Positions 27,308 through 34,439 of a DNA stretch of 36,869 bases are shown here, piece after piece (within the stretch, counting starts at the first letter, position 1; every line of letters begins with the position of its first letter). The stretch covers positions 1-36,869 of the forward strand of contig JAKAMI010000008.1 in the NCBI GenBank assembly GCA_021812945.1. The letters are read 5' to 3'. The DNA is from a bacterium (lineage in GTDB: Bacteria; Patescibacteriota; UBA1384; XYA2-FULL-43-10; JAKAMI01). The notes below the pieces were generated by a model, which ran no database searches, was not told the origin of the DNA, and saw nothing but the letters and a program-made list of their open reading frames with translations. A program made the position numbers and the translations under genes.

Positions 27308-27550
27308 GATGATTAATCATTAGCTTACCCGACCCACCTCGCGGGAGTCAGGGCCACCCCCGAGGTGATTATTAAATCCCGACATTGACATTATAGCAAA
27401 TATTTGTTAGCTTTAAATTGCCTAGATCATCGGGGTAACAAACCCTAAATCCTAAAACCTAAACTCTAAAATATTTTGAATTTTGTATTTTATTTTGGAA
27501 TTTATTTAGGATTTAGAATTTAGAGTTTTGAATTTGAAAACGGAGCGACT

Positions 27551-27898
27551 ATGAAGGAGCTGGAAAACGAAGGATACTGGAGAAGATTAATAAATCAGGG
27601 ACTGATAAAGTTCTTTCTTTTAAAAGTTTTGTATAAAGACAAAGAGTCCTACGGTTACAAAATTGTTCAACGGATTGAAGAAGTTTCAGACAGCTTTTGC
27701 CGTCCGACCGAATCCACCATTTACCCGGCGCTGGACGAGCTAAAAGCCGGCGGCTATGTTCAAACTCGTTGGTTATCCGCCGGAAAGAGAAAACGAAAGA
27801 TCTACATCCTTACCCCCACCGGACGCGACGCCTACCGGACCGCAGTCAAAACTTACGGCACTATATTACCGATATTACGAGAGAATACGATACTCTAA
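27551..27898 (+). CDS. PadR-family transcriptional regulator
   Basis: ESYGYKIVQRI…STIYPALDELKAGGYVQTRW…GKRKRKIYILTPTGRDAY. Confidence 0.88.
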   Translation: MKELENEGYWRRLINQGLIKFFLLKVLYKDKESYGYKIVQRIEEVSDSFCRPTESTIYPALDELKAGGYVQTRWLSAGKRKRKIYILTPTGRDAYRTAVKTYGTILPILRENTIL

Positions 27899-27975: not shown

Positions 27976-28004
27976 TTGCATTAGTAAAATGAAATTGTTA
28001 CAAT
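27976..28004 (+). promoter_or_regulatory. Sigma70-type promoter TTGCAT-N17-TACAAT
   Basis: -35 at 27976-27981, -10 at 27999-28004. Confidence 0.7.
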
Positions 28005-28040
28005 ATCAAGGCTTTAACAATTAATTTATCGGAGGCTATT

Positions 28041-28082
28041 ATGGGTCCATGCGATTCCTGTGGCGGTGGTAAGTGCTGCTAG
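28041..28082 (+). CDS. 13-aa Cys-rich micropeptide MGPCDSCGGGKCC
   Basis: SD GGAGG at 28031-28035; ATG…TAG; promoter upstream and terminator downstream. Confidence 0.7.
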   Translation: MGPCDSCGGGKCC

Positions 28083-28100
28083 TTGAGCAGCCGCACACCA

Positions 28101-28139
28101 AAAATCTCCCGCTTCGTCAAACAAGTCGGGAGATTTTTA
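28101..28139 (+). terminator. Rho-independent terminator of micropeptide unit
   Basis: AAAATCTCCCG…CGGGAGATTTTT. Confidence 0.85.
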
Positions 28140-28412
28140 TTTCTTGGTCGATCCGGCCATTAGCATGAGAAACCCGAGAATGCCGATGAGAGCAAGAGTG
28201 GCGCCGATGATGCCGATAATAACCCAAAAGAAAGTTAGCCCGCCTTCCGACATATAGATGCTTTGGTCGGCGCTGACGCTCTGGCTAAAGAAAAAAATAG
28301 TTAGAAAAACAAAGCCGACTAAGGTACAGATCACCCAAGGATTTTTCAGAAATGAGAGGATACTTTTCACTTCATACCCCACTTTTTTACCGATCCGTGC
28401 TGGCAACCGCAA
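28137..28412 (-). CDS. Small two-TM membrane protein, tandem paralog 1
   Basis: SVSADQSIYMSEGGLTFFWVIIGIIGATLALIGILGFLMLMAGS; true start may be an internal GTG. Confidence 0.7.
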   Translation of the reverse strand: MRLPARIGKKVGYEVKSILSFLKNPWVICTLVGFVFLTIFFFSQSVSADQSIYMSEGGLTFFWVIIGIIGATLALIGILGFLMLMAGSTKK

Positions 28413-28614
28413 AAAGGAAACCCAAGAGGCCTATCAGAACCACCACAACGCCTATAACCGTAAAAACAATCCACAAAAAGGCGATGCCGTTTCCCTGGGC
28501 CACGGCTTGGTCGGCGCTGACCCTGTTTCCGAAAATACCCACCAGCGCGACCAAAAAACCGGCAAACATAGCCAAAAAACTAAAGTTGACGATTTTTTTT
28601 CTTTTCATCTTCAT
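28387..28614 (-). CDS. Small two-TM membrane protein, tandem paralog 2
   Basis: RVSADQAVAQGNGIAFLWIVFTVIGVVVVLIGLLGFLFAVAS. Confidence 0.72.
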   Translation of the reverse strand: MKMKRKKIVNFSFLAMFAGFLVALVGIFGNRVSADQAVAQGNGIAFLWIVFTVIGVVVVLIGLLGFLFAVASTDR

Positions 28615-28662: not shown

Positions 28663-28782
<120 letters not shown>

Positions 28783-29327
28783 AAACAACTTTATTTACAT
28801 TTGACCATGCATCGAAAAGATGCACGGTACAAACGAAAATAAAGCCCTCAAAAGCCTGGGTGTTAGACAGACTCACGGGTTGAGCCGAAGATCCGGCGAA
28901 GCAGATTATTCCGGATTAAGCAAATCTTCACACTGACTCATTAAAGAATTAGTAGGATTTGTTTATGGATTTTTCCACAAAGCGGTATCTAGTGGAGCTT
29001 ACAAAAGCTCCAAGGCTCGAAAATAATACGGCAAAGCCGTTAATTACTAGTCAAGAATTATTAAGTTATATGATCAATTAGTACCTCACGACTTAATCCC
29101 TTACAGGACTTACATCTAAGGCCTATCAAACCAGTGGTCTACTGGTGATCTATGAAATCTAATCTTGGAGCCGGCTTCGCGCTTATATGCTTTCAGCGCT
29201 TATCCGAACCGAACATAGCTACTCTGCAGTGCCACAGGTGTGACAACAGATACACCAGAGGTTCGTCCAGGTAGGTCCTCTCGTACTATACCCAGACCTC
29301 CTCAAATTTCCACGCCCACAGCAGATT

Positions 29328-29371
<44 letters not shown>

Positions 29372-29478
29372 CTTTTAATTGGCGAACAGCCAAACCCTTG
29401 GAACGTACTTCCGCTCCAGGATAGGACGAGCCGACATCGAGGTGCCAAACCGCCGCGTCGATGTGGACTCTTGGCGGC

Positions 29479-29513
<35 letters not shown>

Positions 29514-29665
29514 ATGAGCGATCCGCCTATCACTAGGACGGACCGGATCATTAAGTCCTGGTTTCCCATCTGTTCGACTTGTAGGTCTCACAGTTAAGCG
29601 CACTTCTGCCTTTATACTTTCACTCCGATTTCCATCCGGAGTAAGTGCACCTTTGAACGCCTCCG

Positions 29666-30319
29666 TTACAATTTAGGCAATAATGTTAATCCAATTTTCC
29701 CTAACTTATAGTAGAATTCAGGTAATAAGTAAGGAATTATTATTTTAGCGAATCTAATTGCCGAATCTCCGGTCAATAGAAGCTGATTTCCTTCCGATTG
29801 CTTCCTTATTTGAGATTCTATTTCCCAATTTTTCATCAATGTATCTCTTAGTCGATTAATATCAGTATTAGAGAAGCATTGCGTGTTGAGAATTATGGCC
29901 TTATGTTCTTTCGATTTGATTGAACCATCATCCATAAACCAGACTGCTAAACTTTGTGGTCCGAGCAATTTATAAATCATTTTCGGTATTACTTTCTTCC
30001 TCTCACTGTAAAACTGTTGTGCGTAGAAACGAAAACAGGCATGGCTTACCGTATTGAACCAAATGTTCGTTGACGATTTACTATTGACCATTTTTTGTTT
30101 CTCTTGCGGGGAGGTCAGTACCCATTTATTGAATTGCTCGTAAAGCCAATTTGTGTATTTTGCTTGTACGGTTGAATGCTCAACTTTTAATCTATAAGTT
30201 CTACCGTTATTCTGAGTTTCTAGATGTCCATCGCCCAACATAAGACCAACGAGAATTTCTCGCTGATTCTGAGTCAGTTTCAACTCTTTTTTATGCTGTT
30301 CGATTTCTGTGTTGTACAC
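29666..30319 (-). CDS. LAGLIDADG homing endonuclease within group I intron
   Basis: ILVGLMLGDGHLE and SLAVWFMDDGSIK motifs. Confidence 0.92.
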   Translation of the reverse strand: MYNTEIEQHKKELKLTQNQREILVGLMLGDGHLETQNNGRTYRLKVEHSTVQAKYTNWLYEQFNKWVLTSPQEKQKMVNSKSSTNIWFNTVSHACFRFYAQQFYSERKKVIPKMIYKLLGPQSLAVWFMDDGSIKSKEHKAIILNTQCFSNTDINRLRDTLMKNWEIESQIRKQSEGNQLLLTGDSAIRFAKIIIPYLLPEFYYKLGKIGLTLLPKL

Positions 30320-30597
30320 TACAAAACACTCTTTTTGGATTCTTCGAAAACTTTGAAGATCTGCATGTCGCCATGCAGTTCAGACTATATCATCCCCGAT
30401 GTAAGATCGAGGCTTGGCGTGTAGTCGTTGAGGGGTCCCGCTTCGCGAATGCTTCGCGGGACTTCCCTGCTGATTGTCCGCAGGTATAGATTTTCACTAA
30501 TTAGTACTATACCATACTCGGAGGTTCCAGCATATAGCCAAGACGCCCCACGAGATACCGCTCCCGATAAAATATCAGGAAGTAACGAAGTTTGGTA
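29669..30597 (-). mobile_element. Group I intron in domain V (E. coli ~2250-2270 region) carrying LAGLIDADG ORF; 5' boundary ±15 nt
   Basis: Core GACAATCAGCAGGGAAG, GATGATATAGTCTGAACTGCATGGCGACATGCAG; 3' exon TAACGGAGGC preceded by G. Confidence 0.88.
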
Positions 30598-30648
30598 TCT
30601 CCTTAAGGCAACCGCCCCAGTTAAACTACCCGCCAGACACGGTCCCCC

Positions 30649-30817
30649 CACGCCTTTGTTCACAAAGGCGTGAGAATTTTCAATTTTCAAGTGTCAAGTT
30701 TCAAATAATTATCAATTGTTTAATTTCCAATGTTTGAAGATTGAAAATTGGTTACTGAATATTAATTGATCGTTGATATTTGATTATTGATCATTCCCGA
30801 TGCTCATTTATGAGCAA
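30649..30817 (-). repeat. 23S insertion H (class 1 heptad-repeat hairpin, helix ~79)
   Basis: Between CTAACCCCC… and GGGGACCGTGTCTGGCGGG; flanked by small hairpins. Confidence 0.85.
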
Positions 30818-31058
30818 GGGTGTGGGGGTTAGAACCATTCGACTACAAAGGTGGTATTTCACTGTTGTCTCCACCCCGACCGGAGCCGGAGCTTCAAAGA
30901 CTCCCACTTATGCTACGTATGTAGAAAAATAATTCAATGCCAAGCTGTAGTAAAGCTCCACGGGGTCTTTCCGTCTTGCTGCGGGTAACCGGCATCTTTA
31001 CCGGTATTGTAATTTCACCGGACTCCTCGTTGAGACAGTGCTCAAGACCGTTATGCCA

Positions 31059-31100
<42 letters not shown>

Positions 31101-31111
31101 ATAGGACCGTT

Positions 31112-31428
31112 CAGATTGTTACTTCATAACAAAATTTCTAAATCCAAATTTCTAATTTCTAATCAATTCAAAATGATCAAATTTCAAAACTCTTAAAAAA
31201 TTGTTATGGGCCAAACATTTCTGCTTGACTCTGTATGTCACCATACAGTTCAGACTATATCATCTCCAATCGCTGGAGTTTGGCGTATAGTCGTTGGGGA
31301 TTCTCTAATTATTAGTCAGAGTCTTTCCTGCTGATTGTCTCCACAGCCCAACCGGTTGCCCGTTGGGATTCTAGAGATGTTCCAGCATATGGCCAAATTT
31401 ATTAACGTAACTACAATGGTCCATTTTA
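31112..31428 (-). mobile_element. ORF-less group I intron, 317 nt, after E. coli U1917
   Basis: P1 CGUAACUAU/GUAGUUACG with U·G at splice site; terminal G before AACGGTCC; core matches the other intron. Confidence 0.88.
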
Positions 31429-31474
31429 TAGTTACGGCCGCCATTCACTAGGGCTTAGCCAAACCCCTTCTGCG

Positions 31475-31613
31475 CATCTCGCTCCGCTCGCCAGCAAGTC
31501 GAAAGTTTGTAAAGTAATAAAGTTTATAAAGTCTAATGATTTTTCATCTAACTTTATAACTTTAAGAACTTTTAACTTTATAAACTTGTGTGTCGAACAA
31601 AGTGAGACGCACA
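31475..31613 (-). repeat. 23S insertion F (class 2 hairpin, helix 68)
   Basis: …tctcgctccgctcgccagcaagtcgaaagtttgtaaagtaa…aaacttgtgtgtcgaacaaagtgagacgc. Confidence 0.85.
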
Positions 31614-31740
31614 GTCAAGGCCCGGTTTAACCTTCTAGCATTGGGCAGGCATCAGTCCCTATACATCAGCTTTCGCTTTAGCAGAGACCTAAGTTTTTGC
31701 TAAACAGTCGCTTGAGCTCTTTTGTTGTAACCCCGCTTAT

Positions 31741-31920
31741 GCTCTGCACAAAAGAATCAAAGATTAACTTTCAAGTCTCAAGTATCAAGTTTCAATTAAG
31801 TGTCAAATTTCAACTTTCAATTGGCAAATTGATTATTGATAATTGAATATTAATTGATCATAGGACATTGATAATTGACCATTATTTTGATCATTCTGTG
31901 CAAAGCACAGCCAGGGCAGT
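31741..31920 (-). repeat. 23S insertion E (class 1, helix 63 region)
   Basis: Heptads CTTGANA; terminal ctgtgcaaagcacag. Confidence 0.85.
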
Positions 31921-32384
31921 CCTTATTGCTAACTTACGGACGCTGTTTTGCCGAGTTCCTTAACGAGGATTCTTCCGATCATCTTAGGCTACTCGCCTCA
32001 CCCACCTGCGTCGGTTATCGGTACGGTCGCTAACAATCACGCGTTTAAGACTTTTCTTGTCAGATTCGCCACCCTACCTTTCAACCATAAGATTGATAGA
32101 GCTTAAAATCCGCGTCATCTAAAAACAAATTGCCAGCGGTGCTGGAATATTAACCAGCTGTCCATCATCTACGCTGCCATTACAACAGCCTCGACTAAGG
32201 CCCGACTAACCCTGGGACGATTACCGTTGCCCAGGAAACCTTGGGTTTATGATGGGCCGATTTCTCATCGGCCTAATTCGTTACTTATGCCAACATTCTC
32301 ACTTCTTGACGCTCCACCAACCCTTACAGGTCAGCTTCACCGCCTCAAGAACGCTCCTCTACCACGCCACGCTCCGCGCTTCAA

Positions 32385-32464
32385 CTACTAATGTACTAAT
32401 CAATCTAATATACGAATCTGCGGCAGCAATTATTCGTACTTTCGATAAATTCGTACATTAGTAG
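32385..32464 (-). repeat. 23S insertion D (class 3, helix 45)
   Basis: Inverted repeat CTACTAATGTAC…GTACATTAGTAG. Confidence 0.82.
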
Positions 32465-33119
32465 GAAAAGTGCGAAGCACGGCATCCGTATCTTCGGTCG
32501 ATGTCTTGAGCCCCGTTACATTTTCGGCGCAGAATCTCTGTAACCGCGCAAAGCGCGGATTAGACCAGTGAGCTATTACGCACTCTTTAAATGCATGGCT
32601 GCTTCTAAGCCAACATCCTGGTTGTTTAGGAGATTCCACTTCCTTTTCCACTTAGACATCAGTTAGGGACCTTAGATGACGATCAGGGCTGTTTCCCTTT
32701 TGACCATGGAGCTTAGCCCCCACAGTCTGACTCCCTATAAACGGCACCCCAGTATTCGTAGTTTGTCTGAATTCGACAGATTGCTCCGCCAAGATCCAAT
32801 CAGTGCTCTACCCCTGGGACCTATATAGAGGCTATACCTAAATATATTTCGAGGAGAACCAGCTATTTCCGAGTTCGATTGCAATTTCTACGCTACCCAC
32901 AAGTCATCCCGCGACTTTTCAACGTCGCCGGGTTCGGGCCTTCCCCCGATTTTACTCGGGGTTCACCCTGCTCATGGGTTGATCACTCGGTTTCGGGTCT
33001 AGTATGTATGACTAAACGCACTATTAATGCTCGCTTTCACTACGCCTCCGGGTTACACACCCTTAAGCTTGCCATACATAGCTAACTCGTTGGCTCATTC
33101 TACAAAAGGCACGCAGTCA

Positions 33120-33269
33120 CCGCGCTCTGCGCGGAAGTATCAATTTTCAAGTTTCAATTGTCAAGTAATTATCAAGTTTCAATTTTCAATGTTTAGTATT
33201 GATAATTGAAGTATTGAACCTTAATTGATCATTGATATTTGATCATTGAAATCTCTGTGCAAAGCACGG
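33120..33269 (-). repeat. 23S insertion C (class 1, helix 25)
   Basis: ccgcgctctgcgcgg … ctgtgcaaagcacgg around heptad arms. Confidence 0.86.
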
Positions 33270-33334
33270 CTCCTACTCTTTGTAAGCATTATGGTTTCAG
33301 GTACTATTTCACTCCCCTAAAAGGGGTACTTTTA

Positions 33335-33370
<36 letters not shown>

Positions 33371-33555
33371 AAGATGTATTTAGTCTTGGAGTGTGATCAC
33401 CCCAGCTTCCCACCGGATTACACGTGCCCGGTGGTACTCAGGAACACCAACTAGACTTTACTAAGATTTCGAGTAAGGGACTATCACCCTCTTTGGTCGT
33501 CCTTTCCAGGCTCGTTCCTCTATCTTTTCGAATCTATTATATGGGTCCTACAACC

Positions 33556-33698
33556 CCGCGTGTCTCGCTTCACTCGCCACTGCAAGTTAAAAGTTGAAAG
33601 TTGAAAGTTTGTAAAGTAATTATTAATTTGTTCTACTTTATAACTTTATGAACTTAATACTTTATGAACTTGCGTGTCGAACAAAGTGAGACACACGG
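33556..33698 (-). repeat. 23S insertion B (class 2, domain I helix ~16-18)
   Basis: cgcgtgtctc…gagacacacg arms; AU-rich heptad stem. Confidence 0.85.
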
Positions 33699-33795
33699 TT
33701 TGGACTATTTCCCGTTTCGCTCGCCACTACTCAGGGAATCTCGTTGATTTATTTTCCTCCGGGTACTAAGATGTTTCAGTTCCCCGGCTTACCCT

Positions 33796-33944
33796 CCGCG
33801 CACAGCGCGGAATTATCAAAAGTAAGTTTCAAGTATCAAGTTTCATTTTTTCAAGTATTTACTTGATTATTGATTATTGAAGATTAATTGATCATTGAAC
33901 ATTGATAATTGACCATTATTTTGATCATTCCGTGCTATGCACGG
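33796..33944 (-). repeat. 23S insertion A (class 1, helix 9)
   Basis: ccgcgcacagcgcgg … ccgtgctatgcacgg around heptad arms. Confidence 0.86.
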
Positions 33945-34439
33945 ATCACTGTTTTAAACAGTGGGATTTCTCCATTCGGAAATCTTCGGATCAAAGGTTG
34001 TTTGACACCTCCCCGAAGCTTATCGCAGCCTACTACGTCCTTCTTCGGCATCTTGTGCCTAGGCATCCACCATATGCTCTTACGTAACTTAATTTTTTAG
34101 TTGGAGGTCGAGTTCAAATGGTCATCATGATCTAAAAGATCAGAATAACCCTTGATCCCGACGCAACTTCTTGACTAGTAATTAACGGCTTCAATTACAC
34201 AAGTCCGCAGTCCAAGAGTCCAAAAGTCCGAAGATGTTCTAAGGACTAGGGACTAACGACTTAGGATTTGTAATTGCTTCGCAATTACTTATATTCGGAA
34301 GAATATTTTTTGGTGAAATTACACGCAATCCCATATTTCAGGGACTTACATTTAGCGTGTAAAATTTCGTGAACCTTTATTAGGCTGACCTTCTAAAGAT
34401 TCACAATATTTAGTTGTTAAAGTACGATGACATACTTTT

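Follow-up and report, generated by a model that had tools for sequence, protein, structure and literature searches.

A putative lineage-specific Cys/Gly-rich micropeptide gene between padR and 5S rRNA in a patescibacterial order

Introduction

In the [4Fe-4S] ferredoxin loop the cysteine ligands are spaced CxxCxxC. Synthetic 16-residue maquettes of the bacterial-type loop have been described (PMC10946529, PMC3320576), and [4Fe-4S] clusters form in vitro on CxxCxxC peptides some 16 residues long, including those in which every non-ligand position is glycine; the maquette literature calls the ligand spacing immutable (PMC10946529). Zinc-finger micro-proteins of the Haloferax HVO_0758 type carry C(P)XCG motifs and hold two knuckles in fewer than 70 amino acids (PMC10716476). 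A literature search with the terms that we tried returned no description of a peptide such as the one reported here.

We analysed a 36,869-nucleotide stretch of DNA (the window), which is contig C9 of a 912-kb patescibacterial genome assembly in 42 contigs (96% complete). Membership in the Patescibacteria (CPR) is suggested by the size of the genome, its gene content and the group I introns in its 23S rRNA. An earlier sequence-only reading of this DNA had proposed a complete transcription unit for a 13-residue, Cys-rich micropeptide that might bind metal, act in redox chemistry, serve as a RiPP-like precursor or signal. We compared the locus with its counterparts in related genomes and weighed these proposals against other explanations.

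Results

The micro-ORF and its surroundings

The open reading frame and its parts are certainly present: the 5′ UTR, the GGAGG placed 5 nt before the ATG, the 13 codons, four of them for cysteine, the TAG and the terminator are found base for base as they had been read. The features of the locus are as follows.

27551..27898, plus strand: padR, encoding a PadR-family regulator; upstream neighbour and syntenic anchor across the order (Pfam PF03551, E 1.5e-20)
27976..28004, plus strand: putative promoter TTGCAT-17-TACAAT, weak, 8/12 matches (from the sequence; uncalled by a consensus scan)
28031..28035, plus strand: Shine–Dalgarno sequence GGAGG, ATG 5 nt further on (from the sequence; GGAG at all four family members)
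28041..28082, plus strand: micro-ORF MGPCDSCGGGKCC, 13 aa, four Cys, stop TAG (from the sequence; relatives in three other genomes of the order)
28100..28138, plus strand: intrinsic terminator, A-tract before and T-tract after (RNA fold; same relative place in all four loci)
28137..28412, minus strand: small membrane protein, longest ORF 91 aa, convergent with the micro-ORF (ORF list and translation; no Pfam match)
28387..28614, minus strand: second small membrane protein, 75 aa (ORF list and translation; Pfam matches below threshold only)
28664..28780, minus strand: 5S rRNA, convergent, second syntenic anchor (Rfam RF00001, 102.7 bits; same arrangement in relatives)

The ATG lies at 28041 and the TAG at 28080–28082. 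The first cysteine is residue 4, the cysteines follow the pattern CxxCxxxxCC, and the peptide occurs once in its own genome. A possible paralogue on contig C6 (88% over 25 nt) was rejected as a short opposite-strand match without a comparable ORF. The promoter that had been claimed can be read at its proposed place, with a −35 element TTGCAT (27976–27981; 3/6 consensus matches), a spacer of 17 nt and a −10 element TACAAT (27999–28004; 5/6 matches). It is the weakest part of the unit, and the consensus scan made no call there. The terminator is as strong as had been supposed: RNA spanning 28006–28142 folds at −41.6 kcal/mol (shuffle z −2.27), with a terminator helix of 15 pairs. The consensus scan did not list it, probably because its loop and bulge lie beyond the limits of the scan. 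As an A-tract precedes the helix and a T-tract follows it, the element is also suited to terminating the transcript that converges from the minus strand.

The placement of the unit between padR and two small membrane proteins was borne out by the PF03551 match upstream and the minus-strand ORFs downstream. The true start of the 28137..28412 membrane protein is probably internal, and both membrane proteins (28137–28614, minus strand) share a SADQ stretch. Immediately 3′ of the rRNA operon, small membrane proteins seem to be a recurrent feature in families of the order, as judged from the window and from loci L050–L054 beside 5S, which were compared unaligned. Further along, the 23S rRNA gene of the window (29058–34093, minus strand; about 5 kb) contains two group I introns (Rfam RF00028; 30361–30586 and 31231–31437) and an ORF for a LAGLIDADG_2 homing endonuclease (29666–30319; E 1.3e-47). 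The DNA upstream of padR (27440–27540) carries inverted repeats rich in AT, ctaaatcctaaa / tttaggatttag, that call to mind a MITE or other repeat element.

Relatives of the micropeptide lie at the same place in other genomes

Each of the order's 10 other genomes carries padR homologues that are 60–70% identical. Micro-ORFs were found in the padR-to-5S interval of genomes G046 (MTKEPGCGSCGGCCFTGPDGGGCC), G047 (MTKGPGDCGTCGGCGFTGPEGGCC) and G049 (MVIYCGGCDSCGGCDPEEIKK, about 60 nt downstream of padR). The loci with a micro-ORF have a common layout, with fpg and mostly a HAD gene on the other side of padR, and the micro-ORF after padR, facing 5S/23S; some have extra genes inserted. At 21–24 aa against 13 in the window, these three peptides are also Cys/Gly-rich, with 4–6 cysteines, and each is preceded by a GGAG Shine–Dalgarno sequence and followed immediately by a terminator. 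In the window and in G049 the micro-ORF is the next gene after padR; other genes lie between them in G046 and G047.

Every member that genome-wide pattern searches of the order (n = 11 genomes) detected belongs to family f1 or f2. In family f3 and in G054, padR and 5S face each other with other small genes between them and without such an ORF, and padR is present without the micropeptide in families f3 and f4. The assemblies of G048 and G055 yielded no 5S, and the padR contig of G048 stops 856 bp past padR. The padR-to-5S interval of G050–G054 is variable, with different small ORFs in each genus, as if it were an insertion spot.

A pattern search of 389 genomes of the phylum revealed no further member beyond the order; its other matches were out of frame, lacked an ATG or fell inside larger proteins. 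A GTDB-wide scan gave at least 114 loci, which were filtered by frame, length and terminator; among the matches listed, the sole relative that remained was JAUSKR010000025.1, which is equal to G047. Phage DNA held no match, and matches on viral contigs were unrelated CGSCGGG proteins. Strongly diverged members could escape the genome-wide searches, because the patterns need a GGAG Shine–Dalgarno sequence or a CxxCGG core. Other small Cys-rich proteins appeared alongside: 51–56-aa proteins on viral contigs (L213, L218, L220, L223, L224 and L225), all starting MACGSCGGG; a 38-aa Bacillus-type peptide beginning MGFGGSCGSCGGGGFAGG, with a terminator, common to L132, L212 and L216; and proteins of about 120 aa in mostly Clostridia-type records (L106, L139, L160 and L177), in which an N-terminal CGSCGGC cluster precedes a shared domain.

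The reading frame is conserved at the codon level

We counted short ORFs in 259 kb of this class, comprising 20 padR neighbourhoods and the window; since padR guided the choice of neighbourhoods, the count tests the locus and does not serve as a census of the genomes. Sixty-seven ORFs of 8–30 aa stand behind a GGAG Shine–Dalgarno sequence, and exactly four of them have at least four cysteines. These four are the micro-ORF of the window and those of G046, G047 and G049, each with a strong terminator within 75 nt. Ten Markov-1 resamplings (2.6 Mb) produced 922 such ORFs, of which four had at least four cysteines and none of those had a terminator.

G046 and G047 are the only pair among the four known members close enough for a codon test. 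Over 23 aligned codons they differ at 1, 2 and 11 first, second and third positions, respectively (11 of 14 substitutions at third positions; binomial P 0.0007 against one third), and both indels are of whole codons. Their leaders between the −10 element and the Shine–Dalgarno sequence are 62% identical, against a shuffled mean of 65%. From the third-position bias, the whole-codon indels and a UTR similarity at the shuffled level we conclude that selection acts on the peptide and not on the RNA. The search for the pattern in related genomes that the sequence-only reading had proposed, with an eye to synonymous conservation, yielded the three relatives and, in this pair, 8 synonymous and 4 non-synonymous codon changes. 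That reading would have taken a conserved RNA without a conserved peptide as the mark of a small RNA; G046 and G047 present the reverse.

The micro-ORF is, from these comparisons, very probably a conserved protein-coding gene, and it would be translated in the cell. Synteny and codon-level conservation both support the earlier claim of a real, independently terminated gene for a Cys-rich micropeptide. Very short ORFs are common and the promoter is weak, as would be expected of an ORF arisen by chance, but the same motif in syntenic position in four genomes, and the failure of any of 922 resampled ORFs to combine four or more cysteines with a terminator, make chance a very improbable explanation. 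A small RNA or terminator element in which the ORF is incidental would account for the stable fold, for a hairpin over the stop codon in the window copy (the copy in which it was examined) and for the terminator kept at all four loci. We consider this improbable as well, since the UTR is unconserved in the very pair whose ORF is conserved, substitutions and indels respect the codons, and the Shine–Dalgarno sequence is kept in all four loci.

The conserved residues are cysteine and glycine

The residues conserved among members are Cys and Gly, arranged as C-x-[ST]-C-G-G and then more Cys. CxxCxxC is present in G046, G047 and G049, with Gly, Ser, Thr or Asp between the cysteines; a vicinal CC occurs in three of the four members, and the spacing of the cysteines varies between them. 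Across the order, CxxCGG(C/G) is in frame in recognisable genes only in these micropeptides and in two true [4Fe-4S] proteins of Pfam Fer4 families, EICHSCGGCNLVCP in G048 and DICIGCGGCVSVAP in G054.

The 13-mer is too short to scan; in its three relatives there was no NCBIfam match and no Pfam match above noise, the Fer4 profile gave no match in Pfam up to E 10, and no metallothionein family model matched in either collection. The PDB held no meaningful match. Among the neighbours of the micro-ORF that were examined, none was recognised as a metal-handling gene.

Discussion

We propose, with a probability of roughly 0.55, that the micropeptide is a lineage-specific thiolate ligand of a metal or an Fe–S cluster. 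Its gene would be lineage-specific and monocistronic, translated from its own Shine–Dalgarno sequence, and the bidirectional terminator would end the transcript at once. The product would most likely act in the cytosol as an unstructured thiolate ligand, in which the CxxC-GG core and the further cysteines would bind a soft metal ion or a small Fe–S cluster, and it may buffer or carry what it binds. Metal or redox binding had been among the earlier suggestions and stays the best reading of what the peptide would do. That the peptide is a free-standing ferredoxin cluster loop of 13–24 residues, acting as a cluster carrier or electron shuttle in the cell, seems unlikely. A ferredoxin-type cluster is doubtful for the window member, because the spacing is reported to be immutable and the window copy reads CxxCxxxxCC. 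Since this member breaks the CxxCxxC spacing, the family as a whole would be better explained by thiolate binding of Zn(II) or Cu(I), or by a looser cluster, than by a ferredoxin-type cluster on its own.

Other roles for a translated product were weighed against the same loci. A ribosomally made low-molecular-weight thiol that buffers redox state without a specific metal, as an analogue of glutathione or phytochelatin, would suit a very short Cys/Gly-rich peptide with frequent vicinal cysteines and variable spacing; the CxxCGG core is, however, more constrained than a thiol pool needs, and we regard this role as unlikely. Shortness and Cys/Gly content would equally suit a RiPP precursor processed by a maturase, whether a radical SAM enzyme or another kind, and radical SAM proteins are encoded in all 11 genomes of the order. 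They are equally present where no peptide was found, however, and the neighbouring genes examined (fpg, HAD, padR, a cupin-like protein, the small membrane proteins and rRNA) include no maturase or exporter. RiPP maturation is improbable because no maturase or exporter is conserved nearby and radical SAM proteins occur irrespective of the peptide; moreover, 13 residues leave no leader segment, and no NCBIfam or Pfam precursor model matched the three relatives, the 13-mer being too short to scan. The RiPP-like precursor of the sequence-only reading is accordingly unsupported, and so is the signalling peptide that it also offered, with no leader region and no conserved maturase or transporter beside the gene. 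A signal or ligand for the neighbouring PadR regulator would explain why the micro-ORF directly follows padR in the window and G049, yet genes intervene in G046 and G047, padR persists without the peptide in families f3 and f4, and no exporter was seen, which leaves it a slim prospect. Slighter still is the chance of a leader peptide in which Cys codons control read-through, an idea in keeping with the pair of Cys codons next to the stop and the terminator close behind. The DNA downstream is convergent in all four loci (small membrane proteins, 5S antisense, a convergent ORF and a convergent AAA-type ATPase ORF), so the micro-ORF would be no attenuator leader: at none of the four loci does the next gene lie on the same strand.

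Annotation normally passes over genes of this length. With a Shine–Dalgarno sequence and a terminator of its own, and with relatives in place in other genera, a gene of 13 codons would lower the size at which protein families can be recognised in uncultured bacteria with small genomes. Binding of a cluster or metal, if it occurs, would make the peptide a natural example of function below the size needed for folding.

In the features tested, the micropeptide is not a member of the ferredoxins, the metallothioneins, the RiPP precursors or the attenuator leaders; it may work in the manner of a small metal or Fe–S ligand. It resembles Cys-codon attenuator leaders in being a short ORF led by a Shine–Dalgarno sequence, with Cys codons ahead of a terminator, but differs in having no co-directional downstream gene at any of the four loci. 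HVO_0758-type proteins share the CxxCG knuckle; they carry two such knuckles (PMC10716476), whereas the micropeptide has only one CxxCGG and is too short to form a ribbon. Metallothioneins and other short Cys-rich metal buffers have a similarly high Cys fraction, with CxxC and CC pairs, and the micropeptide is presumably too short to fold on its own, as with metallothioneins; it is far shorter than they are, its three relatives match no family model and no associated metal genes were seen. Compared with the ferredoxin cluster loop, the micropeptides have neither the ferredoxin fold nor the distal CP, the window member reads CxxCxxxxCC and the relatives lack a Fer4 profile match, but CxxCxxC is present in those three relatives and the CxxCGGC loop also occurs in the true Fer4 proteins of the order. 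Short peptides have been proposed as the ancestors of ferredoxins; should the ferredoxin-loop reading be true, a minimal gene-encoded Fe–S micropeptide of this kind would be their counterpart in nature.
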